The notes under the pieces are model-generated. The model ran no database searches. It saw only the letters and a list, made by a program, of their open reading frames with translations, and was not told the origin of the DNA. From Solitalea longa (lineage in GTDB: Bacteria > Bacteroidota > Bacteroidia > Sphingobacteriales > Sphingobacteriaceae), in contig NZ_PQVF01000004.1 in NCBI RefSeq assembly GCF_002920915.1, positions 62,001 to 126,000 on the forward strand: DNA of 64,000 nucleotides, given 5' to 3'. Positions 51,322 to 64,000 of the stretch are shown one piece after another; the first letter of the stretch is position 1; every line of letters begins with the position of its first letter. Both the position numbers and the translations under genes were made by a program.

Positions 51322-51860
51322 CTTATATATTGTACGTACTTGTAATTGTAGCCATCTCCTCCTTTTTTAAGCAAAGGCCGGAAGAAAACAAATAAATTCT
51401 ATTGAAAATCAGTTACATATAAATAAAACCGTTTTAATAAGATTCTGCTCTCCCCCTCTAAAACTCCCCATATTAACCAAATCCTGAGGCAGCCTCTCCC
51501 CGTTTTCTTTATTCATAATTGTTTTTCACTAAAAAATAGTGGAATAATCCATTGTTTTAACACTTGATTAAAATCAAATTGTGCTTTCAAAGCAATACAG
51601 AAAATAAAATTTTCTAAAGGCCCCAAAAGGCCACCAATTAATGAATAAAGCAACATTTTTATTACATGTTATGCTTTCCATTTTAAGACCTAAACTAAAA
51701 ATTAAATGAAAGGAGCGCCATAGTAAAAAATCAACACTAAAAAATAATGGAAACGGGCGATGTTGCAGCATCACCCGTGTGAGGTAAGTTTAATAAATTC
51801 CTTTGCTTTCAACCGGCAAAACAGGGACTTATTGTGTTTAACTAAACCCAATCAAATCTA
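51322..51860. other. 539-bp leader/intergenic region before susC, with a hairpin at 51753-51778
   Basis: AT-rich region with no supportable gene. The hairpin acgggcgatg / catcacccgt (10-bp stem with one wobble, 6-base loop, no T-tract) lies about 80 bases before susC. Similar cactaaaaaatantgga motifs recur at about 51529 and 51735. It is probably the promoter and 5' untranslated leader of the susC operon; no TAnnTTTG match was found, only a near match TTCCTTTG at about 51798. Confidence 0.55.
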
Positions 51861-54800
51861 ATGAAAAATTGTTACGAAAAAGTTATTACAAAAAAATACA
51901 ACCCTAAAGCTTGTTTCAGAAAAAAGAGCTTTTTAGCTCTACTGTTAATGGCGTCTTCCATTAATCTAATGGCGCAATCAGAGCCACAGCAAGCCAAAGA
52001 AGAAAAAACGGCAGCTACGGCAACCCGAAAGAAAATCCAGATCAACGGAACAATTACCGATGAAAATAACAACCCATTGATAAGAGTTACTGTTGGAGAA
52101 TTAGGTACCAAAAACGGGACTGTTACCAATGAAAAAGGTCATTTTCATTTAATAGTACAAGATAACGCTGTTGTGTTGATTACCTATTTGGGAATGGAAT
52201 CACAAAAACTGCGAATGGATGGTAAAACTACTTTCAATATTGTAATGAAAGAAAGTAGCACTTCTATTAAGGAAGTGGTGGTAACTGGTATTCCTTTTAA
52301 CCGTAAAGCTGAAAGTTTTACAGGTTCCTACACAAAAATTACTGCTCAGGAATTACAAAGCGCAGGAACTCAAAACATTTTTCAAAGCTTGAAAAATTTA
52401 GAGCCATCCTTGAACTTTATTGACAATAATGCCACCGGTTCTGATCCTAATAAAATGCCTGAATTGCAGATCAGAGGAGCATCTTCATTCCCTGATGTGA
52501 ACAATGAGTATGCGACCAAACCCAATCAGCCGCTGTTCATTGTTGACGGCTTTGAGATGGCCATTGAAAAAGTAGCAGACTTGCCTCTACCCCGAATAGA
52601 ATCTGTTACCATTTTAAAAGATGCATCAGCTAAAGCTTTATATGGTGCAAGAGCGGCTAATGGAGTTATTGTTATTGAAACGGTAAAACCAAAAGGAGGA
52701 GCATTAAGAATTAGTTATAATGGAACTCTGGGTATTGAAGCCCCTGATTTTAGCAGTTATAACTTAACGAATTCATCCGAAAAATTAGCCCTGGAAAGAC
52801 AATTAGGCGCATACAATCAAAAACAACCAATTGAGGGCTTACGATTTGATAGTTTGTATTATGCTAACTTAAAAGCGGTACAAAATGGAGTAAATACCGA
52901 TTGGTTGGCTCAGCCTACTCAAACCGGTATAACCAACAGACATACAATTAACATTGAAGGTGGTGATGAGCATTGGACTACCGGGTTTTCATTATTTAGC
53001 AATGGCACCCAAGGAGCAATGAAAGGTAGTGAAAGAAATAATTTAGGAGGAACGCTTAGTATAGGTTATCGCCAAAGCAAGATCTTGTTCCGAAACCAGT
53101 TATCATTAACCAAATCTAATTCAACAAACTCCCCGTATGGCGATTTTTCGTTCTATGCCCAATTAAATCCATATTGGAGACCTTATAATGATGATGGTAG
53201 CGTTCGCAAGGTTTTAGGCCTTAGTCCGTTATACGGACAGACTGTTTACAACCCAATGTTCAATGCTACCCTGAATGGTCGTTCAACTTCAGCATATACA
53301 GATCTTACAAATAATACTCAGCTTGAATATGCTTTCACCGATCATTTTAAGGTAGTTGGACGTGTAGGATTTACCAATACAGTTAATGGCTCAGACGAAT
53401 TCATTCCTGGAAGTAATCTCAAGTTTATTGCTTTTGTAGGTGATAACTTATATAACAGAGGATCGTATGACAAAACAAACGGCAAGTCTTCATCGGTAAA
53501 CGGTGACTTGAACGCTAACTACAGCAACAGATGGGGAAGACATTTAATTTTTGTCAACGCTGCTGCCAATATCCGTGAAGATAATAGTGAATCTTATTCA
53601 TACTCGGCAACAGGTTTTCCGAATGACAAAATGGATAACATCATCTTCGCTAAACAATACGCTTCAAGCGCACTTAAGCCAACCGGCAGTGAGGCTACAA
53701 CAAGGGAACTGGGAGCATTGGGTATGATCAACTACTCTTTTGATGAAAGATACGTTGCTGATTTTTCTCTTCGCACGAGTACTTCTTCTCAATATGGTGC
53801 GGATAACCGCTGGGGTATGTTCTGGTCGGCAGGTGCGGGCTGGAACGTTCATAAAGAGAAGTTCTTTGGAGATAACCAGTACATCAATTTATTGAAACTG
53901 AGAGGCTCAATGGGTAATACCGGTTCACAAAACTTCAATGCTTACCAGGCAATGTTGTTGTATAACTACTTTGTTGACCAATCTTATCAGGGAATGGTAG
54001 GTACGTATTTGAACAACCTTAATAATCCGGGTTTGAAGTGGCAGCAACGCATGGACTATAACGTTGGTCTTGATGTTGATTTTATGAAACGGTTAAGTCT
54101 TCGCTTAGACGTATACAAAGGTGTAACCAATAACCTTCTTACTGATATCACCACTCCGCCCTCACTTGGCTTCGCAACTTATAAAGCCAATTTAGGCCAG
54201 CTTGTAAATAACGGTTTCGAGTTCCGTGTGAATTACAAAATGTTTGTAAATACTGCGAACAGACAAGTGCTGAATGTTTTTGTATCAGGGGCATCCAATA
54301 ATAATAAAATTACCAAGATCTCTAATTCGCTACAGAGCCTTACAAATTTACAGGATACTAAATCCAGAACCAGTAACAAGCCATTGGTAAGATTCCAGGA
54401 AGGCCAGTCTCTAAATTCAATTTGGGCAGTTCGCTCAAATGGTATTGATCCGGCTACCGGAAAAGAGATCTATGTGAAATTAGATGGAACCTTAACTGAT
54501 GTATGGGATCCGGCAGATAAAGTTGTAGTAGGTGATAACTTGCCTAAAATGATGGGAACTGCGGGAGCAAACTTTGCTTACAAAGGTTTAACGATAGGTG
54601 TAATAGGTCGCTACAGAGTAGGCGGTCAAACCTATAATCAAACACTGGTTGATAAGGTAGAAAACGCATCATTAAATAACAACGTTGATGCACGTGCTTA
54701 TTACGATAGTTGGAAACAAGCAGGTGATAATGTGCTGTTCAGAAGTATTGGCACAACCCAAACCACCACTCTTGCTTCATCACGTTTTGTGCAAGATTTG

Positions 54801-54998
54801 AGTGAACTATCAATATCATCTGTTAATCTTGGCTATGATTTTTATAGTTATTCGTTTGTTAAAAAGTTAAAATTATCAGCATTGAGAATGGGACTTAATC
54901 TAAACGATGTTTACCAAATCAGTACTGTTAAGGTAGAAAGAGGTACTTCGTATCCGTTTGCCCGTAACTGTTCATTAACGCTTAATGCCAGCTTCTAA
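51861..54998 (+). CDS. SusC/RagA-family TonB-linked outer-membrane protein
   Basis: 1045 residues. A long N-terminus precedes the signal peptide (FLALLLMASSINLMAQ). An N-terminal carboxypeptidase-like domain (INGTITDENNNPLIRVTVGEL, about 55-135) is followed by the plug with RIESVTILKDASAKALYGARAANGVIVI, the SusC hallmark, and a large barrel ending NCSLTLNASF with terminal Phe. No STN domain is present, so it does not directly signal to an anti-sigma factor. SusC pumps oligosaccharides or peptides across the outer membrane with TonB energy. The partner SusD follows 32 bases later. Confidence 0.95.
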   Translation: MKNCYEKVITKKYNPKACFRKKSFLALLLMASSINLMAQSEPQQAKEEKTAATATRKKIQINGTITDENNNPLIRVTVGELGTKNGTVTNEKGHFHLIVQDNAVVLITYLGMESQKLRMDGKTTFNIVMKESSTSIKEVVVTGIPFNRKAESFTGSYTKITAQELQSAGTQNIFQSLKNLEPSLNFIDNNATGSDPNKMPELQIRGASSFPDVNNEYATKPNQPLFIVDGFEMAIEKVADLPLPRIESVTILKDASAKALYGARAANGVIVIETVKPKGGALRISYNGTLGIEAPDFSSYNLTNSSEKLALERQLGAYNQKQPIEGLRFDSLYYANLKAVQNGVNTDWLAQPTQTGITNRHTINIEGGDEHWTTGFSLFSNGTQGAMKGSERNNLGGTLSIGYRQSKILFRNQLSLTKSNSTNSPYGDFSFYAQLNPYWRPYNDDGSVRKVLGLSPLYGQTVYNPMFNATLNGRSTSAYTDLTNNTQLEYAFTDHFKVVGRVGFTNTVNGSDEFIPGSNLKFIAFVGDNLYNRGSYDKTNGKSSSVNGDLNANYSNRWGRHLIFVNAAANIREDNSESYSYSATGFPNDKMDNIIFAKQYASSALKPTGSEATTRELGALGMINYSFDERYVADFSLRTSTSSQYGADNRWGMFWSAGAGWNVHKEKFFGDNQYINLLKLRGSMGNTGSQNFNAYQAMLLYNYFVDQSYQGMVGTYLNNLNNPGLKWQQRMDYNVGLDVDFMKRLSLRLDVYKGVTNNLLTDITTPPSLGFATYKANLGQLVNNGFEFRVNYKMFVNTANRQVLNVFVSGASNNNKITKISNSLQSLTNLQDTKSRTSNKPLVRFQEGQSLNSIWAVRSNGIDPATGKEIYVKLDGTLTDVWDPADKVVVGDNLPKMMGTAGANFAYKGLTIGVIGRYRVGGQTYNQTLVDKVENASLNNNVDARAYYDSWKQAGDNVLFRSIGTTQTTTLASSRFVQDLSELSISSVNLGYDFYSYSFVKKLKLSALRMGLNLNDVYQISTVKVERGTSYPFARNCSLTLNASF

Positions 54999-55030
54999 GG
55001 GATTTTTTATCAACCAAAAAAGAATTTGAA

Positions 55031-56488
55031 ATGAGAAATAAAATATTAGCAAGCTTACTGACACTGATCACATTGATTAGTACCACTTCTTGTGAAAAAT
55101 GGATGGATGTGGCCCCTGCTACAAAAATTAAATCAGAGGTGTTGTTGCAAAACGAGCAGGGATATAAAGATGCATTGATAGGTTGCTATACACTAATGAA
55201 AGGGCAGTCGATGTATGGCCGTGAACTTACTTTTGGTTTCATGGACGCCGCCATTTTGCAATATGATCTTGGCAACGTTACTTCATATAAAGATTTAAGT
55301 CTGAAACCACTAACCTATACCTCTACTGGTATTCGCACAATAGTGGATAATGCCTGGAAAAACATGTATAACGTGATCGCTAACGTAAATAACATCTTAG
55401 ATCATATTGATGCAGATAAGGCCAAATTTACAGGAGATAATTATCAGATCATTAAAGGTGAAGCATTGGCAATAAGAGCCTTCATTCATTTAGATCTGTT
55501 GCGCTTATTTGGTTCTACTGATTTAACCCAAACGGCAATTCCTTATGTTACTACCCTTGGCACCAACGTTACGCCACGTTCCAAAGGAGAGCAAGTAATG
55601 GAATTAATCTTGAAGGATTTGAATGATGCTGCTGACAATTTAAAAGTAGATCCTATTAAAATTGGTTTGAAACGTAATTCGGATATCTTCCTTGATAATC
55701 GTCACCAACACTTAAACTATTATGCCGTTAAGGCCATTATGGCCAGAGCCTATTTGTGGAAGAACGATAAAGAGAATGCCCTTATAAATGCAAAAGAGGT
55801 TATCGATATAGCTAACAAAACATTCCCTTGGATTCTACCGGCAAATATTACCGCCTCTTTAGAAAGAGACAGGGATTACACATTTTCAACAGAAAACCTT
55901 TTTGCGCTGAATGTATTTGATTTGAAAACAATTGGAAATACCTGGCTTTATACTGCTACTACTACAAGTCAACTCCAAAAGTCGGGTGCCGCGGCTGGTA
56001 CTTCTGGTTATACTCAAATGTTCGAAACCGCTAGTATAGGTGCCAATGATCTCCGTTTGTTGTACGTTACAAAGAAAGTAGGAACCTCAACCTATATCGT
56101 TAATAAATTTTATCAGCCCGACAACTTGAGGCCAGATTATGCAGCAATGATGCCTCTACTTCGTCGCTCGGAGATGAACTACATCGCTGCTGAATGTAAT
56201 ATTGGTATTGATAATCAGGCAGCTATTAATTACCTAAATGAAGTAAGAGGTAACAGAGGTATTGTTGTGCCACTTAGTTCTTCATTAACCGATGATCAAA
56301 TTCGGACAGAAATTTTGAAGGAGTACAGAAAAGAGTTTCAGGGAGAAGGCCAGCTATTTGCCTACTGTAAAAGAACCAAACAAACCATTATTCCAGGAAC
56401 TCCATCTGGAGGATACATTGGTACTCCAATAACTGAAGTTCAAATGATACTTCCATTGCCTGATAGCGAAGTAGAATTCGGCAGATAG
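55031..56488 (+). CDS. SusD/RagB-family surface lipoprotein
   Basis: 485 residues with a lipobox (LISTTSCEKW). The SusD-like fold shows an N-terminal helical TPR core starting GYKDALIGCYTLMKG and NNILDHIDADKA, plus ALAIRAFIHLDLLRLFG and NYYAVKAIMARAYLWKNDKENAL, with the C-terminal MNYIAAECNIGIDNQAAINYLNEVRG and EILKEYRKEFQGEGQ. It forms the hinged lid over SusC and binds the substrate. Together they suggest a nutrient uptake pair; the substrate cannot be read from it, but neighbours suggest peptides. Confidence 0.94.
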   Translation: MRNKILASLLTLITLISTTSCEKWMDVAPATKIKSEVLLQNEQGYKDALIGCYTLMKGQSMYGRELTFGFMDAAILQYDLGNVTSYKDLSLKPLTYTSTGIRTIVDNAWKNMYNVIANVNNILDHIDADKAKFTGDNYQIIKGEALAIRAFIHLDLLRLFGSTDLTQTAIPYVTTLGTNVTPRSKGEQVMELILKDLNDAADNLKVDPIKIGLKRNSDIFLDNRHQHLNYYAVKAIMARAYLWKNDKENALINAKEVIDIANKTFPWILPANITASLERDRDYTFSTENLFALNVFDLKTIGNTWLYTATTTSQLQKSGAAAGTSGYTQMFETASIGANDLRLLYVTKKVGTSTYIVNKFYQPDNLRPDYAAMMPLLRRSEMNYIAAECNIGIDNQAAINYLNEVRGNRGIVVPLSSSLTDDQIRTEILKEYRKEFQGEGQLFAYCKRTKQTIIPGTPSGGYIGTPITEVQMILPLPDSEVEFGR

Positions 56489-56531
56489 AGAGGTTTAATT
56501 CATATTGTAAAACGTTAAAAAAATTATAAAA

Positions 56532-57269
56532 ATGAAAGCAATAGTTAAAGCATGTTCTTTAGTTCTTTCATTGGGCTTTCTTTTAAGTGCCTGTTCTGAA
56601 ATGGATATTCCAGGCTACGAGAATGATCCCAGAATGTTTTTTCAAATTCCTGGAATTGGAAATACTTTACGCGATTCAATTATTTATTCATTCCCGGCAC
56701 ATCCAACCATTACAGAGGCTGATACCCTTTGGTTTGATGCATGTATTATGGGCAATGCTGCTCCCGTTGATCGTGAAATTGGAATTAAAATAAACACCGA
56801 AAAAACCACCGCTGTTGAAGGAGTTAACTTTAAGTTTCCGAGTAAGATAATGCCTGCCAACGCTTTTAAAGCGCGTATTCCAATTGTGATCTATAGATCC
56901 GGATTAAAAGACAAATCGGTTCGTCTGCAAATAGAAGTGCAAGAAAGTAAAGACTTCAAAATTGGTTATAACAGATATAATTCTGCGGTTTTTATTTGGG
57001 GTGATAAATATTTGAAACCGGATATCTGGGATATTTCGGAATATGTTAAGGCATTTGGTACATTTTCAGAGAAAAAGTATGCCTTCATTTTGGAATCATG
57101 TAAACTAACTGAACTTCCTGATCCTAATGATAAACCAGCATTGCAGTATTATAATGCATTGGTAAGAAACGCTCTAATAGAGTATAACGCCTCTCATCCT
57201 GCATTAACCGATGAAAATGGAGCAGTAATAATAATAAATCAATATTCTGCCGCCGGAGGTGTTGGTTAA
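56532..57269 (+). CDS. DUF4843 surface lipoprotein
   Basis: 245 residues with a lipobox (SLGFLLSACSEM). It has the DUF4843 outline: a beta-rich domain (FPAHPTITEADTLWFDACIMG, AVEGVNFKFPSKIMPANAF) followed by a short C-terminal helical part (KPALQYYNALVRNALIEYNASHP). DUF4843 proteins occur right after SusD in many Bacteroidota loci, where they may help bind substrate. It is 43 bases after susD, in the same operon. Confidence 0.85.
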   Translation: MKAIVKACSLVLSLGFLLSACSEMDIPGYENDPRMFFQIPGIGNTLRDSIIYSFPAHPTITEADTLWFDACIMGNAAPVDREIGIKINTEKTTAVEGVNFKFPSKIMPANAFKARIPIVIYRSGLKDKSVRLQIEVQESKDFKIGYNRYNSAVFIWGDKYLKPDIWDISEYVKAFGTFSEKKYAFILESCKLTELPDPNDKPALQYYNALVRNALIEYNASHPALTDENGAVIIINQYSAAGGVG

Positions 57270-57318
57270 CAGTTATTAGAGATCGACAAAAGTTAATTTT
57301 TACTAAAAAGGAAATTAC

Positions 57319-58860
57319 ATGAAAAGAAAATATTGTTTCGCAGCTTTAATGGCCCTTTCATTATTCTGGGCAGGTTGCGCAAAAGATGAGGGAAATTATA
57401 CCTATAAAAATTTAAGCACTTATTTTGTTGATACGGCAGGTATGCCAAAATCGTATCTGGCTAAACAAAATGATGTGGTAAATATAAATCTGAATAACGT
57501 AGAAGGTGCTTCAACAGATTTATCGTACGAATGGAAGCTGGTGACGCAGAGTTACGCGGCCGATCCAAATACCGGCACTTATGTTAATAAAACATTGGCA
57601 ACTACAAAAGATCTTTCTTTTAAGGTAGTGGATGTGCCGGGAGAGTATTATTTGGTTCTGTATACTAAAGATAATTCAAACGGAGGAATCACTCAAACCA
57701 TTAAAAAAGCCTTGACTATCAGCGGTTATGCTTCGCCGGGATTGATGGTGGTACACGGATCAAATAATGAAAGTGACATAAGTATTCTTGTAAACAGTAA
57801 ACTGTATAGTGCATATACCCAGGCCGATAAAATTCAGTCAAATGTTTTCTCTGAGATCAATGGAACTAAAATACCTGGTGACGGCGCAGGGGTTACTCAT
57901 ATGGTACAAGGTTGGGTAAGTGTGTTCACCAATAACAACAGTGGCGGATATCGTTTAAATCTGAACGACTTGCGCATAATGAATACTTACCCTAACATGT
58001 TCGTTATGCCTATGGCTTCTGGTGATGTGCAATTTCAGGCCTATGATAGCTGGAGTTATAACGAGCTAATGATAAATAAGGGGGATCTCTATTTTATGTC
58101 GCAGGCACAGGTTAATATTTTCAATAAATATGGCTATAAGTGCTACGGTCAGGATTATGTAGCGGCTCCATTTATCGCCGCAACGGATGGCGGTAAATCC
58201 CCTTTTGTTTTTTACGGTGTGATCTACGATGCCAAGAACAGACGCTTCCTTTACATTGATTATAACCATGATATAAAATTGTTTAAATCCCTGCCTGCAA
58301 ATGGAGCCGGGAAATTTGACATGAGTAATGTAGGTAAGGACATGGTATATGCAGAAATGGGACTAGGAACCACTACACCGAAATGGTATTGCGTAATGCA
58401 GAGCCCGAATAATCCTGCAACCAGACAATTATACGTATGTCAGTTTAACGTAGCAGACGATGGTAACAGAGGTGTTGATCTAATCGATATCAGTGCAGCT
58501 ACTGATTTAGCTAATTCGAAATATTTTGCATTCGGAAGCAAGGCTAATATTATGTACCATGCTACCGATACAAAGATCTATCAGAACAATTATGCTAGTG
58601 ATAAAAAATCGAATTTATTATTAGATATTTCTGGTTCTTATCCGGGAAGTGTGATTACATCAATGAAAATATTCAAATACACTTCGTCTCCTGTTCATCC
58701 AAACGATGGCAAGCTTTTATATGTTGCCCTTTACAATGCAACAACTAATGAAAGTACGCTTTTACAAATTAACGTAAGTGAAATAAACGGTTCATTTGGC
58801 ACTATAACTCCTTATTTGTTTAGTGGTAAAATTTCGGCGATGAGCTATAAAGCAAAATAA
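57319..58860 (+). CDS. PKD-like family surface lipoprotein
   Basis: 513 residues with a lipobox (LFWAGCAKDEG). An Ig/PKD-like domain (about 35-130, with LSYEWKLVTQSY and VVDVPGEYYLVLYTKDNSNG) is followed by a seven-bladed-like beta region (SGYASPGLMVVHGSNNESDI, FLYIDYNHDIKLFKSL). This PKD-like lipoprotein is a usual fourth partner after SusC, SusD and DUF4843 and is probably a surface binding protein for the same substrate. It ends the first operon segment, before a strong hairpin. Confidence 0.85.
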   Translation: MKRKYCFAALMALSLFWAGCAKDEGNYTYKNLSTYFVDTAGMPKSYLAKQNDVVNINLNNVEGASTDLSYEWKLVTQSYAADPNTGTYVNKTLATTKDLSFKVVDVPGEYYLVLYTKDNSNGGITQTIKKALTISGYASPGLMVVHGSNNESDISILVNSKLYSAYTQADKIQSNVFSEINGTKIPGDGAGVTHMVQGWVSVFTNNNSGGYRLNLNDLRIMNTYPNMFVMPMASGDVQFQAYDSWSYNELMINKGDLYFMSQAQVNIFNKYGYKCYGQDYVAAPFIAATDGGKSPFVFYGVIYDAKNRRFLYIDYNHDIKLFKSLPANGAGKFDMSNVGKDMVYAEMGLGTTTPKWYCVMQSPNNPATRQLYVCQFNVADDGNRGVDLIDISAATDLANSKYFAFGSKANIMYHATDTKIYQNNYASDKKSNLLLDISGSYPGSVITSMKIFKYTSSPVHPNDGKLLYVALYNATTNESTLLQINVSEINGSFGTITPYLFSGKISAMSYKAK

Positions 58861-58879
58861 TTTTATTCATTTTTTGAGG

Positions 58880-58915
58880 GGAATTCACCGCTGCTAAGGC
58901 GGTGAGTTCCATTTT
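58880..58915 (+). terminator. Hairpin terminator after the PKD-like gene
   Basis: 12-bp stem ggaattcaccgc / gcggtgagttcc with one mismatch and a 7-base loop, then atttttaa. May act as terminator or partial attenuator in the locus. Confidence 0.75.
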
Positions 58916-58947
58916 TAACCTATCAATTAAACCAAAGATTTAAAGAA

Positions 58948-60087
58948 ATGAATTTGAATAGACTTAAGTGGGTCTTGGTGTTAACAGTCTCCCTTTTGCA
59001 GTTGCAAAGTGTTGCCGGTGATAAGTCTTTAAGTGTGCAGGAAGATAGAATTAGTGGTTTAGAGAAAGAGTCAAAAAAAGTTGAGCTATCCAATTACCCT
59101 AAGCCAACCTCCTTACAGGAAATCTCTGACCTGTTAACGAATGCAATAAAATCACTTACAAAAACTATTTATTTTGACGCATCTGCTATGAAAATGACAG
59201 ATAGTCAGCTAAAGATGACCGTTCTAAATGCATATTATAATGCATTGAATAAGGATAATTCTTTGAAACACACTTATAAGGTGGTGCCCACTCGTAAACC
59301 AGGAACAAAGATCATGGTATGTGAGATTAAATACATGCCTTATAAGCTGGGTATCAACCCAAAAACAATACCAGCGGGTACTAAAAAGATCAATAGTTAT
59401 AACGATCTCCTATCTGCAACATTAAACTCCCCTTCCGGGAAGAATATTCCGATCGCTATAACCAACAAAGATCTTGATTTTACTACTATGCAGTTAATAT
59501 TAGGATCCAATTGTGGCTACGGATATTTTGTTTATACGTTTAATGCCGAGGCAACCACCATTAACTGTACTCCTGCCCCTAAAGGCTTACCCGGAGCGCC
59601 AACAAGCGTAAGTGACTGTATATTAAAGATCAATACTGTTAAAGATTCGGTTACAGCGATCTTAACTCGTATTATAACTCCTGAAATGACCAATGATCAA
59701 AAATTGACCTCGATTTACAATTATGTAACTCGAACTTCATACGATTTCAATTATAATACTCCCAAGTTGCCTTTTGATTCACAAACGGCTTATGGTGTTT
59801 TTGTAAATAGAAAAGCTGTATGCGGTGGATATTCATGGGCCTTTAATTTGTTGGCAAATGCCGCAGGAATTAAATGTTATAATGTGGGTGGAAAGGGTGA
59901 CAATGTTACTCATGCCTGGAGTATGGCCAACTATAATGGCGAGTATTATTACTTTGATAGTACCTGGGACCGTGGCTTAAACCAACACCCCTATAGATAT
60001 TTCGGCCAAACAGAATCCTATTTCCAATCAAAAAGACATGTTTGGAATAACTCAATGATCAATGCTTTGGTGGCTGAGAATCAATAA
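58948..60087 (+). CDS. Exported transglutaminase-like protein
   Basis: 379 residues with a signal peptide (VLVLTVSLLQLQSVAG). The transglutaminase/protease-like core holds Cys292 (KAVCGGYSWAF), His322 (VTHAWSMANYN) and Asp337 (YYYFDSTWD), the catalytic triad in the right order. The N-terminal half is not recognised. Members can act as peptidases, amidases or cross-linking enzymes. In this locus a peptide-processing role is likely; that is inference from neighbours. Confidence 0.85.
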   Translation: MNLNRLKWVLVLTVSLLQLQSVAGDKSLSVQEDRISGLEKESKKVELSNYPKPTSLQEISDLLTNAIKSLTKTIYFDASAMKMTDSQLKMTVLNAYYNALNKDNSLKHTYKVVPTRKPGTKIMVCEIKYMPYKLGINPKTIPAGTKKINSYNDLLSATLNSPSGKNIPIAITNKDLDFTTMQLILGSNCGYGYFVYTFNAEATTINCTPAPKGLPGAPTSVSDCILKINTVKDSVTAILTRIITPEMTNDQKLTSIYNYVTRTSYDFNYNTPKLPFDSQTAYGVFVNRKAVCGGYSWAFNLLANAAGIKCYNVGGKGDNVTHAWSMANYNGEYYYFDSTWDRGLNQHPYRYFGQTESYFQSKRHVWNNSMINALVAENQ

Positions 60088-60103
60088 ACGCTTTGTTAAT
60101 CAA

Positions 60104-60137
60104 TAGAGTATAGAAATCTTTTACGGTTTATACTCTA
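60104..60137 (+). terminator. Hairpin after the transglutaminase-like gene
   Basis: 9-bp perfect stem tagagtata / tatactcta with a 16-base loop, followed by AT-rich sequence. A weak terminator. Confidence 0.5.
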
Positions 60138-60167
60138 ATTTAATTTGACCTTTTACAATAAGTATAG

Positions 60168-61283
60168 ATGAAAACGAATAACCTAAAGTGTTACATCACA
60201 ACGCTTGGTATTTCCCTTTTGAGTTTGCAAGGTTTTGCACAAAGCAAAGATTGTATAGTTAGTGGAAAAATCAACGGAATAGATAAAACATCAAAAATAA
60301 CTGTCGGTCGCGATCACGGCGATCATGGGGGCCGAGAGATCTTAAAGCAGTCAACAATAGATGCGAATGGAAATTTCTCATTTACAATTCCGGCTCAATT
60401 AGCTAATGAAGTATATGATTTTCAAATTGAAGGAATTCGATCAGCTTTTAATTTCGTGGCAGAAAAAGGCCACATTGAGATTACTGGTGATAAAAACAAA
60501 CTTTACGCTTGTGAAATAAAGGGAACTCCTCAAAACGAACATTGGAATAACTATCAGAAATTCTCCCTGGCACAAACCATGAAGAGTAATCAGGTGATGA
60601 TGAATAGCCAGCAATATTCTAAAGAAGAAAAAGTGGCTTTTTTCAAGAAAGCGGAAGCCGAAAAAAAAGCTTACACCGATTCGTTGATCAAGAATTACCC
60701 GAATTCTATTGTTTCATTGTACCTGGCTAAGGGTCCTTTAATGATGATGAAGTATGATCAGATTGATGCTGTTCTAAAAAACTTCAACCCCTACTTTTCT
60801 AAGCACCCCTATTACCTTGCCATGAAGCAGCGCGCGGATATCATTCGCAAAACGGCTCCCGGTGCAATTGCTCCTGATTTTACTGTGTTTGAGAAAGATG
60901 GAAAATCGAAGATCACACTCTCTTCTTTCCGTGGAAAATATGTAATGCTCGACTTCTGGGCCTCTTGGTGTGTTCCTTGTCGTGCTGAAAATGTGCACAC
61001 AAAAGAGATGTATGAGAAATATCATGCTAAAGGTTTAGAGGTAATTTCCTTCTCATTAGATCATGAACTCGACAAATGGCAAGAAGCCTTAACGAAAGAT
61101 GGTTTGATATGGAACAATGCTTCTGATCTGATAGGTGGCTTAAAATCACCTGTAGCTAAAAAATACGGTATCGATGGTATTCCTGCTATTTGGATCATTG
61201 ATCCTAACGGGAAGATCATTACCGAAGGTGTAAGAGGCGAAGAGTTGAATAAAGTACTGGAATCGATCTTTAATAAAGGATAG
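60168..61283 (+). CDS. TlpA-like thiol:disulfide oxidoreductase with N-terminal DUF4369-like domain
   Basis: 371 residues with a signal peptide (LGISLLSLQGFAQ). The N-terminal DUF4369-like beta domain (CIVSGKINGIDKTSKITVGR) is followed by a helical linker and the thioredoxin fold (from about 240), with active site Cys268-Val-Pro-Cys271 in DFWASWCVPCRAEN. IDGIPAIWIIDP is the cis-Pro loop. These periplasmic proteins reduce or shuffle disulfides. In a peptide locus it may open disulfide-bonded substrates or keep partner proteins reduced. Confidence 0.92.
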   Translation: MKTNNLKCYITTLGISLLSLQGFAQSKDCIVSGKINGIDKTSKITVGRDHGDHGGREILKQSTIDANGNFSFTIPAQLANEVYDFQIEGIRSAFNFVAEKGHIEITGDKNKLYACEIKGTPQNEHWNNYQKFSLAQTMKSNQVMMNSQQYSKEEKVAFFKKAEAEKKAYTDSLIKNYPNSIVSLYLAKGPLMMMKYDQIDAVLKNFNPYFSKHPYYLAMKQRADIIRKTAPGAIAPDFTVFEKDGKSKITLSSFRGKYVMLDFWASWCVPCRAENVHTKEMYEKYHAKGLEVISFSLDHELDKWQEALTKDGLIWNNASDLIGGLKSPVAKKYGIDGIPAIWIIDPNGKIITEGVRGEELNKVLESIFNKG

Positions 61284-61312
61284 TTTCATTTGGAGATTAT
61301 CAAGTCATAAAC

Positions 61313-61349
61313 GGCCCCTCTGACCATAGCTGAAGCAGGGGCCTTTTTT
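61313..61349 (+). terminator. Terminator between TlpA-like and S46 peptidase genes
   Basis: 7-bp GC-rich stem ggcccct / aggggcc with a 17-base loop and six T. It ends only about 24 bases before the next ATG, so some readthrough must serve the peptidase gene unless it has its own unseen promoter. Confidence 0.85.
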
Positions 61350-61373
61350 CAACCAATCAATAGAAAAACTGAA

Positions 61374-63512
61374 ATGTATAAGAAAACCATTATAAGATGG
61401 TCATTGCTGATTGCTTTTTTATTGTCGTTCACTGCCCAGGTACGTGCAGATGAAGGCATGTGGCTACTGGCCTTGTTAAAAAAGAACAATGCTGACGAGA
61501 TGAAAGCAATGGGGCTGAACATTCCCATAGAAAAAATTACCGGCGATGACGGTGCTTTAAGCGAATCGGTAATTGGATTTGGTTCAGGATGTACCGGTTC
61601 TATCATTTCAGGTTCAGGTTTAATACTTACCAACTATCACTGTTCCTACAGTGCTATTCAACAGTACGTTACACCTACAAATGACATTTTTCAAAATGGT
61701 TTTTGGGCCAATACTACAGAACAGGAGCTTCCTGTTCATGATTTAACCATTACCATCAATAAAAAGATACTTGATATCACAGCCGAAATTAAAGGTGCTA
61801 GCGACGGCAATTTTAAGGATGCAATGGATGCTGTTTCGAAAAAATATCAGCAAAAGTATCCTAAGTATAAGGTCCTTATTAAGTCGTACAAAAACAACAG
61901 CCTATTTGTATTATTTCTTCAGCTGCAATACAAAGATGTACGTTTTGTAGGGGTAGCACCTAAAAATGTTGCCAAGTTTGGTGGCGAAACTGATAACTGG
62001 ATGTGGCCTCGCCATAGTGCCGATTTTGCGTTCTTTAGGGTATATGCAGATAAAAATGGAGCGCCGGCGGCTTATTCAAAAAACAATGTGCCATTGGCGG
62101 TTAAAAACTACTTACGTATTTCTACCGAAGGTTATAAAAAAAGTGATTTTGCCATGTCAATGGGTTATCCTGCCATGTCCGATCGTAATGCTACTTCTTC
62201 AGAAATCTGGGATAAAACGCAGGTGGTTAATTCGGCAATGATAGCCGCCCGTAAGCTTCGTCAATCAATTCTGGAAGAAGAAATGGATAAAAGTCCGCTC
62301 GTTAAGCAATTATATGCTGAAAAATATGCCACCTCAGCCAACTATTATAAGAATGCTGTAGGTATGAATTTTTGGGTGGATAAATTAACTATCATCTCAC
62401 GCAAAGAAAGCTATGAAAAGGAATGGATGAAATGGGCGACCCAAGACGAAAGCAAGAAAAACCTTTATGCCACTTTATTGCAGGATTTGAAAAGTGGAAC
62501 AGAAGCAAATGCGCAATATAAAAAGGCGCTTAACTATTATGTAGAAGGCTTTGGGTCATGTGAAATGATTCAGTTTCTTTCAGCCTTTGCGAATTCATAT
62601 ACAAATTATGTTACGAGTTTAAAAACGAGGCCAACTCTTCAAAACGACTTATCAAGCACAGCCAGAGGATATTATAAAAATTTCAATGCAGAAATTGACA
62701 AGAGGGTAACCAAGGCAATGCTTAAGCTTATGGCTGATAGTATTCCTGAGCAATTATTGCCTGAGATTTTTTCTTCGAAGAACCTTCATTCTTCTGCAGC
62801 GATTGATCAGTATGTTGATGAGCTGTTCCAAAGTTCAGTTTTTGCGAATGCGGATAAACTTCAGAATTGGTTAAAGAACCCATCGACACCGATTGAAAAT
62901 GACCCTGCGGTGTTATTAAACGAATCGATAGAGAAAAAGCGTAGAGAACTCTTCAAAATAAACTCTTCTAATTCAAACAAACTATACAGATACGCTTCTG
63001 CCTACTCAAACAGCCTGGATGATTTTAAAGGTGGCCGATTTTATCCGGATGCAGATAGAACCATCCGTCTTTCATATGGAACTGTTACAGACCTGCAAGT
63101 GGACGGTAAGACTATCCCCTATCAAACCATGTTTAGTGGGTTGATCGCCAAAGCTGCCGATACAACAATTAAAGATTATCAACTCAATTCAAAACTGAAG
63201 ACGATTTGGCATAACAAAGAGTTTGGGAAGTATGGAGTAAACAGCGACATACCGACTTGCTTTGTGACCAACGGAGATGTTACCGGTGGTAATTCCGGCA
63301 GCCCGATGATGAATGCCAATGGAGAAATTATCGGACTGGTATTCGACTGTAACTGGGAATCAATGACAAGGGAGTTCAATTTCGAAAAAGACCTACACAA
63401 AGTAATCTGCGTAGACATTCGCTATTTACTCTTTATTACAGAGAAGTTTTCTGGTTCAAATAGAATAATCGCTGAAATTGAGAAGGCCAATCAAACTAGC
63501 AACCTAAATTAA
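61374..63512 (+). CDS. S46 family dipeptidyl-peptidase (DPP7/DPP11 type)
   Basis: 712 residues with a signal peptide. It removes dipeptides from peptide N-termini in the periplasm. The chymotrypsin-fold triad is His89 (ILTNYHCSYSAIQ), Asp217 (WPRHSADFAFF; assigned by position) and Ser641 (GGNSGSPMM). DEGMWLLALL at the mature start and the helical insert (about 280-600) are S46-typical. The P1 specificity position is 18 residues after the serine: Gly in DPP7-type, Arg in DPP11-type, and here Cys659 (GLVFDCNWES). So its specificity cannot be assigned by that rule. Confidence 0.95.
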   Translation: MYKKTIIRWSLLIAFLLSFTAQVRADEGMWLLALLKKNNADEMKAMGLNIPIEKITGDDGALSESVIGFGSGCTGSIISGSGLILTNYHCSYSAIQQYVTPTNDIFQNGFWANTTEQELPVHDLTITINKKILDITAEIKGASDGNFKDAMDAVSKKYQQKYPKYKVLIKSYKNNSLFVLFLQLQYKDVRFVGVAPKNVAKFGGETDNWMWPRHSADFAFFRVYADKNGAPAAYSKNNVPLAVKNYLRISTEGYKKSDFAMSMGYPAMSDRNATSSEIWDKTQVVNSAMIAARKLRQSILEEEMDKSPLVKQLYAEKYATSANYYKNAVGMNFWVDKLTIISRKESYEKEWMKWATQDESKKNLYATLLQDLKSGTEANAQYKKALNYYVEGFGSCEMIQFLSAFANSYTNYVTSLKTRPTLQNDLSSTARGYYKNFNAEIDKRVTKAMLKLMADSIPEQLLPEIFSSKNLHSSAAIDQYVDELFQSSVFANADKLQNWLKNPSTPIENDPAVLLNESIEKKRRELFKINSSNSNKLYRYASAYSNSLDDFKGGRFYPDADRTIRLSYGTVTDLQVDGKTIPYQTMFSGLIAKAADTTIKDYQLNSKLKTIWHNKEFGKYGVNSDIPTCFVTNGDVTGGNSGSPMMNANGEIIGLVFDCNWESMTREFNFEKDLHKVICVDIRYLLFITEKFSGSNRIIAEIEKANQTSNLN

Positions 63513-63522
63513 TCAATAAAGG

Positions 63523-63558
63523 TGAGGCTGCTTCTCAGGAAACTGGTAAACAGCCTCA
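63523..63558 (+). terminator. Terminator after the S46 peptidase gene
   Basis: 8-bp stem tgaggctg / cagcctca with a 20-base loop, followed by ttgattttt. It lies 11 bases past the peptidase stop and 28 bases before the next start. Confidence 0.7.
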
Positions 63559-63585
63559 TTGATTTTTCAGTATTGAATTATAGCA

Positions 63586-64000
63586 ATGAAAAATATATTC
63601 AGGCAAGCCGCAATTGTTTCTTTAGGGTTGATAATTACTATCCAGACGTATGCTGAAGACGGTATCAAAACCATCGTGAAAGGTTCGGTTCAAAACGCAA
63701 AGATCAAATCGATCATGATCTCGAGGCGCACTAATATGCGCGGCGATAAGGTCACCGATTCTATAGCATCCAATGGTCAGTTTCAATTATCAATGAATGT
63801 AAAACAGGCTGGATTTTACGTATTATCAAGCATCTCAGGCAATCTTGATGGAGTAGATATGTATCTAAAACCAGGTGATCAAATTGCAATAAAAATAGAA
63901 AAGTATCAGTTGGTGATGAGTGGCAAAGGAAGCGAACTAAACCAGTTTCTATATAACATTCAAAAATCGATGCCTTACCAAGGCTGGGTTGCCAGCTATA
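63586..64000 (+). CDS. Start of an exported DUF4369-like protein, probably thioredoxin-family (3' end outside window)
   Basis: 138 codons are visible before the window ends, open throughout. A signal peptide (AAIVSLGLIITIQTYAE) is followed by a beta domain with TIVKGSVQNAKIKSIMISRR, VDMYLKPGDQIAIKIEKYQ and MSGKGSELNQFLYNIQ. This is the DUF4369-like pattern seen before TlpA/AhpC thioredoxin domains; the thioredoxin part would lie beyond 64000 and is not seen. It is the eighth gene of the peptide locus. Confidence 0.75.
   Translation, partial: MKNIFRQAAIVSLGLIITIQTYAEDGIKTIVKGSVQNAKIKSIMISRRTNMRGDKVTDSIASNGQFQLSMNVKQAGFYVLSSISGNLDGVDMYLKPGDQIAIKIEKYQLVMSGKGSELNQFLYNIQKSMPYQGWVASY

Follow-up and report, generated by a model that had tools for sequence, protein, structure and literature searches.

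Gene content of the locus

The region at 51861–64000 of the window, by which we mean the whole analysed stretch of 64,000 nt (bases 62001–126000 of contig 31 in the 4.5-Mb draft genome of a soil bacterium, a congener of Solitalea agri), contains eight open reading frames (ORFs) on the forward strand, separated by gaps of 32, 43, 49, 87, 80, 90 and 73 nt. Pfam assigns them, in order, to SusC, SusD, DUF4843, PKD_2, a transglutaminase-like protein, TlpA, the S46 peptidases and the start of a DUF4369/TlpA gene (Table 1). All these parts belong to already known families. An earlier preliminary description, made from the letters alone, had given the same eight genes in the same order, and the ORF coordinates together with the Pfam and NCBIfam matches confirm it. 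One entry needed amendment: the eighth gene, described as the start of a DUF4369-like protein, does begin at that place, and it is a complete 451-aa TlpA gene, followed by a third one. The same description interpreted the genes as a system for peptides rather than glycans, with disulfide chemistry and with a transglutaminase-like enzyme acting on isopeptide links.

The SusC protein scores 568 bits against NCBIfam TIGR04056 (cut-off 368), which makes it, with the adjacent SusD, a SusC/RagA plus SusD importer. Three proteins of the locus are TlpA-like, that is, exported proteins of thioredoxin fold with a CxxC motif (CVPC, CRPC and CGPC; signal peptides were judged by eye). In the second of them the DUF4369 match lies slightly below the curated cut-off. 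SusCD loci are usually taken as sugar systems. Among the nine genes from SusC to the third TlpA, a Pfam scan reveals neither glycoside hydrolases nor sulfatases nor any other enzyme acting on sugars, in agreement with the earlier reading, and the glycan-active enzyme that marks a polysaccharide utilisation locus is thereby missing from them. The order of the nine genes is also found in genome G003 and in S. agri, and that of the first eight in Pinibacter soli, which has one TlpA fewer. According to the NCBI taxonomy, Solitalea belongs to Sphingobacteriaceae and P. soli to Chitinophagaceae, in another class. Since the order is kept in these genomes, including other genera, a chance gene cluster is rejected as unlikely.

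Table 1. Features of the locus. Positions refer to the window; those preceded by L004 refer to locus L004, the locus of this genome.
Feature	Position	Strand	Evidence and remarks
Upstream stretch of SusC, FecR missing	51322–51860		
SusC/RagA-family TonB-dependent outer-membrane barrel, 1045 aa	51861–54998	+	CarbopepD_reg_2, Plug (Pfam); TIGR04056
SusD-like lipoprotein lid, 485 aa	55031–56488	+	PF14322 (SusD-like_3), PF07980 (SusD_RagB); SusD-superfamily matches in PDB
DUF4843 lipoprotein, 245 aa, partner of SusD and PKD_2	56532–57269	+	PF16132, 105 bits
PKD_2 (PKD-like) lipoprotein, 513 aa	57319–58860	+	PF16407, 70 bits
Hairpin between importer and enzyme blocks, 13-bp stem and T run	58880–58910 (L004 10881–10911)	+	
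Exported transglutaminase-like enzyme, 379 aa, optional accessory	58948–60087	+	PF01841 (Transglut_core)
TlpA-like thioredoxin with N-terminal DUF4369, 371 aa, CVPC	60168–61283	+	AhpC-TSA, DUF4369 (Pfam)
S46 dipeptidyl-peptidase, 712 aa	61374–63512	+	Peptidase_S46, 603 bits
Second TlpA, 451 aa, CRPC	63586–64000 (L004 15587–16942)	+	Begins in the window, ends beyond it
Third TlpA, 453 aa, CGPC	L004 16946–18307		Beyond the window, 3 nt after the second
Pyridoxal_deC (pyridoxal-dependent decarboxylase) gene	L004 18407–19759		99 nt past the third TlpA

Recurrence of the importer block and its thioredoxins

PKD_2 is present in 96 of 251 genomes of the family and in 5 of 296 genomes drawn from across the phylum, the source genome being counted in both. 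We compared 84 PKD_2 loci: one each from 67 family genomes outside the genus, three from other families in the phylum draw, five from the source genome, five from G003, three from S. agri and one from Pinibacter. The 67 genomes were sampled from the 96 positive ones, each locus being the best among the matches listed; loci at contig edges in G451 and G550 were replaced and G526 was passed over. Repeat or truncated copies (L024, L030, L042) had been excluded before counting. A further 20 loci, three chosen for the FDCNWE pattern described below and 17 representing additional PKD_2 matches in multi-copy genomes, were tallied apart. ORFs of at least 90 aa were called mechanically, and a gene run was ended by a gap above 350 nt.

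The block SusC-SusD-DUF4843-PKD_2 is kept in 82 of the 84 loci, the exceptions being L065, which is truncated at the end of its contig, and L083, in which SusD is split over two ORFs. Recurrence of the gene order in other Bacteroidota was the check proposed in the preliminary description, and an order confined to this genome, which these counts exclude, would have spoken against it. A TlpA gene lies within the run in 81/84 loci and is the first gene downstream of PKD_2 in 64/84; CxPC motifs occur in 126 of the 139 TlpA genes of these runs (regular-expression search). The runs without TlpA are L062, L089 and L105; the latter two contain a metzincin by our local hidden Markov models (HMMs), and the genes after the block in L062 may be those of an ABC transporter. 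The additional set shows TlpA in the run at 16/20 loci; at L138 it stands beyond the gap limit and at L139, L145 and L148 there is none.

The genes behind the block are more variable. Local HMMs recognise a protease or transglutaminase-like gene in 50/84 runs, to which Pfam adds Trypsin_2 in L104 and M60 in L072, with a protein of L069 clustering with the latter. Six kinds of protease are confirmed by Pfam across the loci, namely S46, Asp_protease_2, Trypsin_2, metzincin, M60 and M16, the last in L122 with a cluster mate in L123. The L123 run also encodes DsbD (Pfam), and a protein of L122 belongs to the same cluster. The unlabelled downstream ORFs number 110 and form 55 clusters; 30 proteins from 28 clusters were included in a Pfam tally, of which the best 25 of 43 families were listed. 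The scanned members of the largest cluster (23 ORFs) match Thioredoxin_7.

Other SusD loci of the same genome serve as a control. The SusD-like_3 model finds 30 SusD genes, 28 of them above the curated cut-off. Five belong to the DUF4843/PKD_2 loci and L042, the upstream half of a tandem with a PKD_2 block, was left out, giving 24 controls; the SusD of one of them, L052, was missed by the local SusD HMM. Their downstream genes were covered by one Pfam tally of 41 of the 66 listed unlabelled ORFs and by single scans of 21 proteins. TlpA occurs in the run at all five PKD_2 loci versus four of the 24 others (L031, L035, L037 and L039; Fisher p 0.001). Glycoside hydrolases or sulfatases are found at 11 of the 24 (L036, L038, L043, L044, L045, L046, L048, L049, L050, L051 and L053), and none of these 11 has TlpA in the run. 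Conversely, the five PKD_2 loci show no sugar enzyme in those of their genes that were scanned. The same five loci hold 13 of the 39 Redoxin-domain matches of the genome in about 69 kb, or 1.5% of its length by rough endpoints (binomial p ~1e-14, a value which treats tandem duplicates as independent).

Some control loci have peptidases of their own. L032, L033 and L037 are SusCD loci without DUF4843/PKD_2 that carry S9 peptidases behind ECF/FecR genes and form a second class of peptide-type locus. An M14 carboxypeptidase is found at L040.

A cysteine in the S46 peptidase

The S46 protein of the locus is a full-length member of its family (603 bits), with His89, Asp217 and Ser641 at the triad positions and the triad motifs conserved in the alignment. 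Position 673 of PgDPP11 sets the preference for the P1 residue, DPP7 enzymes having Gly and DPP11 enzymes Arg or Ser there, according to PMC8041751. The matching residue of the locus enzyme is Cys659, which places it in neither subgroup by this residue. All seven locus S46 sequences aligned have Cys at this position, and the two S46 paralogues encoded elsewhere in the genome have Gly and Arg. A DNA pattern for the surrounding motif FDCNWE gave six matches in five of the 251 family genomes, while the reversed control pattern gave none; the rarity of the cysteine refers to this exact motif across these genomes. Every match falls in an S46 gene of a SusC-SusD-DUF4843-PKD_2 locus: one each in the source genome, G003, S. 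agri and G436, and two in G444. Pinibacter provides the seventh. Six of the seven locus enzymes have a second cysteine, Cys629, which neither paralogue shares; a disulfide between the two would be conjectural.

A TlpA gene directly precedes the Cys-type S46 gene and another follows it in 7/7 loci. Five of these loci include the transglutaminase-like gene, and the two of G444 (L136, L137) lack it; the unit can therefore be described as importer, TlpA, Cys-type S46 and TlpA, to which the transglutaminase-like gene may be added. One might go further and regard the locus enzyme as a third, redox-linked specificity class, in which the cysteine in the S1 wall would select Cys or mixed-disulfide residues at P1, or would need to be kept reduced by TlpA, so that import, reduction and dipeptide release would be coupled for one cysteine-rich class of substrate. 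We put this forward tentatively and think it rather unlikely to be correct as it stands.

The transglutaminase-like gene

The transglutaminase-like protein has a Transglut_core domain in which Cys292, His322 and Asp337 are invariant in the relatives aligned (alignments A1 and A4); from family knowledge we take these residues to be the catalytic triad, which makes the protein a member of the transglutaminase-like superfamily. In the PDB, its one clear match by E-value is likewise a protein with a transglutaminase-like domain. Structure models built from three-row alignments reached a mean pLDDT of 45 for this protein and 47 for PKD_2. The enzyme would most likely be a hydrolase that uses its cysteine to cleave amide bonds, either in the peptide backbone or in side chains.

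The distribution of the gene is narrow. Across the 84 loci it is found in four, and among 120 genomes searched at E ≤ 1e-10 it is present in the source genome and two others, with one congener lacking it and further copies in Pinibacter and G436. A central place in the system, which we considered, is rejected by these few genomes and the congener without it. Action on isopeptide links, as proposed earlier, is not supported: the gene is optional, and it is missing from L136 and L137 despite their TlpA-S46-TlpA arrangement. Beyond this optional presence, the data hold no evidence for or against such an activity.

Apparent mosaic evolution of the importer

Sequence identities suggest that the parts of the locus have different histories. 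Between S. agri and the source genome, SusC, the first TlpA and S46 are 69, 89 and 72% identical, while SusD, DUF4843 and PKD_2 reach 51, 48 and 41%. The comparison of S. agri with Pinibacter (L028/L029) gives the reverse picture: SusD, DUF4843 and PKD_2 are 67, 56 and 66% identical, closer than within the genus, and SusC, TlpA and S46 are 56, 55 and 64% identical, farther than within it. The transglutaminase-like protein of S. agri is 64% identical to both. SusD, DUF4843 and PKD_2 were thus likely swapped together as a cassette, and such joint exchange, read from identities, fits a shared role in recognition of the cargo.

Regulation and neighbouring features

A FecR gene lies upstream in 76/84 loci, and an ECF sigma factor together with FecR in 63/84. 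The eight loci without FecR comprise L065, where no SusC is seen, L021, L022, L092, L127 and L129, where no same-strand upstream gene is found in the stretch fetched, and L004 (the present locus) and L023 (G003), in which other genes occupy the place of FecR. Pfam detects an STN domain in the SusC proteins of S. agri, Pinibacter, the two G444 loci and two other loci of the source genome, and none in the SusC of the present locus or of G003. This genome and G003 accordingly lack both FecR and the STN domain at the locus, and S. agri and Pinibacter have both. In the source genome FecI/FecR are also found ahead of loci with S9 peptidases or TlpA, of an ABC locus and of a single GH13 locus, so that they are not a marker of peptide uptake by themselves.

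Gaps inside the importer block of related loci are short (medians 11, 11 and 19 nt), and the median after PKD_2 is 38 nt. Stable folds (z < −2) are predicted in 26/57 gaps after PKD_2 and 39/79 gaps between later genes versus 2/47 inside the block, where z refers to mononucleotide shuffles, gaps below 25 nt were excluded and block gaps are shorter. The G003 gap as called has no such fold, its next ORF start being placed far upstream. In the window itself, 16 terminator-like sites in the region compare with 12.9 expected (standard deviation 3.1), which is within chance. A hairpin at the junction of importer and enzymes may dose the importer above the enzymes. The Bacteroidetes-type promoter pattern has three matches in the window versus 5.6 by chance, none of them upstream of SusC, and a sigma-70 scan yields 42 sites versus 55 in shuffles.

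The Pyridoxal_deC protein encoded past the third TlpA has histidine and tyrosine decarboxylases as its top NCBIfam models, both under the cut-off. We do not count the gene as part of the conserved unit, because it is not at that position in G003 or S. agri.

Interpretation

We consider the locus to be probably a member of a widespread class of SusCD systems for proteins or peptides, which combine disulfide reduction with an exchangeable protease. Peptide uptake is supported by the presence of TlpA at PKD_2 loci, by the lack of sugar enzymes in the scanned genes of all five such loci of this genome and by the lack of TlpA at all 11 sugar-enzyme loci. The peptide rather than glycan character claimed for the locus is thus strengthened by swapping proteases and near-constant TlpA, while its extension to substrates carrying isopeptide links is not borne out. 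Disulfide chemistry, the other part of that claim, gains from the near-constancy of TlpA and its absence at the sugar-enzyme loci, as well as from DsbD in the L123 run and at L122. DsbD supplies thiols in the periplasm with electrons from the cytoplasm, and its presence argues for reduction as the direction; genome-wide, the source genome has one DsbD_TM match, on a different contig from the locus.

From gene content we infer the substrate, the redox direction and the following division of labour. The surface lipoproteins SusD, DUF4843 and PKD_2 would capture a polypeptide fragment, which SusC would import with TonB energy, as is usual for its family. Periplasmic TlpA proteins, recharged by the DsbD of the genome, would then reduce the disulfides of the fragment, and a locus-specific protease would degrade the opened chain; here S46 would clip off dipeptides, assisted by the transglutaminase-like enzyme.

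Several observations weigh against this interpretation. It is derived from genes, and TlpA proteins could serve protein folding in the envelope. The 31/84 runs without a recognised protease mean that the thioredoxin is often alone beside the importer, and the downstream genes were scanned in part (30 proteins, 28 of 55 clusters). PKD_2 is patchy, as its 5/296 genomes in the phylum-wide draw illustrate. At one further SusD locus, L030, a TlpA gene upstream of SusC lies outside the gap limit, and the locus was counted as lacking TlpA. A gene of GDPD-GH16 type occurs in six runs, L070, L080, L095, L099, L100 and L111, all of genus g13 (L095 by Pfam, the other five by clustering); L148 combines ABC and GH16 genes and has no TlpA. 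Finally, DUF4843 and PKD_2 are not, by sequence, the lipoprotein families of the Bt2261–64 complex discussed below. As a separate observation, in the six g13 runs the GDPD-GH16 type gene precedes one for a protein of about 789 aa, which is probably the source of the phosphoesterase/phospholipase C entry in the Pfam tally.

The strongest alternative would have TlpA maintain the envelope proteins of the locus itself, by reducing or isomerising wrong disulfides in SusC, the lipoproteins and the proteases, rather than act on the cargo. It could draw on the cysteines of the locus S46 beyond those shared with the paralogues, Cys659 among them, and on the TlpA genes beside four SusD loci without DUF4843/PKD_2. 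Yet TlpA stands beside proteases of the aspartic and trypsin-like kinds and beside most metzincins, as well as in runs where no protease is seen, and so does not track one cysteine-containing client; housekeeping would also hardly call for as many as four TlpA genes in a run. We regard this explanation as unlikely. Somewhat less probable still is the import, in place of bulk protein, of one particular small peptide or peptidic natural product with thiol or disulfide groups, similar to a siderophore, an antimicrobial peptide or glutathione. The frequent FecR and ECF sigma genes upstream fit it, this being, from family knowledge, also the layout of signalling uptake systems, as do the several parallel loci per genome and the surface lipoproteins apparently swapped as a block. 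The proteases are of general types, however, and FecI/FecR also stand before SusCD loci with S9 peptidases or GH13. A glycan or glycoprotein locus with its sugar enzymes elsewhere, to which the rank of 8aa4 ahead of RagA among the PDB matches of SusC and the GH16-type genes in or near the run of seven related loci might point, is very improbable given that no scanned gene at the five PKD_2 loci encodes a sugar enzyme, whereas 11 of the 24 other SusD loci have glycoside hydrolases or sulfatases.

If the peptide interpretation with periplasmic reduction holds, DUF4843, PKD_2 and TlpA behind SusCD are the signature of many loci that most likely feed on protein. The protease family is the exchangeable part of such loci, which would let classes of substrate be predicted from genomes. 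DUF4843 and PKD_2, families of unassigned function, gain a likely role as surface partners of the importer. The question also arises whether disulfide-bonded peptides enter the cells of Bacteroidota in this way and are opened in the periplasm.

Comparison with known systems

The SusC/SusD-type pair is shared with RagAB of Porphyromonas gingivalis. The window SusC matches RagA; its top PDB match is 8aa4, a SusC homolog chain. To our knowledge, DUF4843, PKD_2 and TlpA are absent around ragAB. The Bt2261–64 complex presumably has two further lipoproteins, and we assume that the PDB set includes their chains, Bt2261 and Bt2262. The match of the window SusC to BT_2264 is weak. DUF4843 has no PDB match up to E 1 by single sequence or profile, and PKD_2 none below E 0.1 by either. 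Homology of the two families to Bt2261/Bt2262 was considered and rejected, as their profiles (A6 and A7) have no PDB match below E 0.1. RagAB is described as a peptide transporter, and Bt2261–64 as a SusCD complex with bound oligopeptide, in PMC7782687; P. gingivalis also has an S46 dipeptidyl-peptidase, as stated in PMC6753110.

With DPP7 and DPP11 the locus S46 shares the full-length domain and the triad motifs, and it differs by the cysteine at the 673 position; its score of 544 bits against the NCBIfam Dpp7 model is far below the cut-off of 1200. Polysaccharide utilisation loci share the layout of a SusC-SusD-lipoprotein block followed by exported enzymes, which are here replaced by proteases and thioredoxins. 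A marine Formosa raises peptidases on laminarin, according to PMC6246565. An iron-responsive TlpA gene is reported in a paper that also mentions SusC, SusD and a peptidase, the accessible passages of which contain no locus of the present kind (PMC10434189).

In the full-text literature searched, outside which most subscription papers fall, SusC, SusD, transglutaminase, thioredoxin and Bacteroidetes never occur together, the phrases tried for a protein or peptide utilisation locus are absent, and DUF4843 and DUF4369 are mentioned in two papers each. Within this literature we met neither a recurring class of protein-utilisation loci in which thioredoxins are nearly constant nor an S46 enzyme of the Cys type; the combination of these known families may be new.

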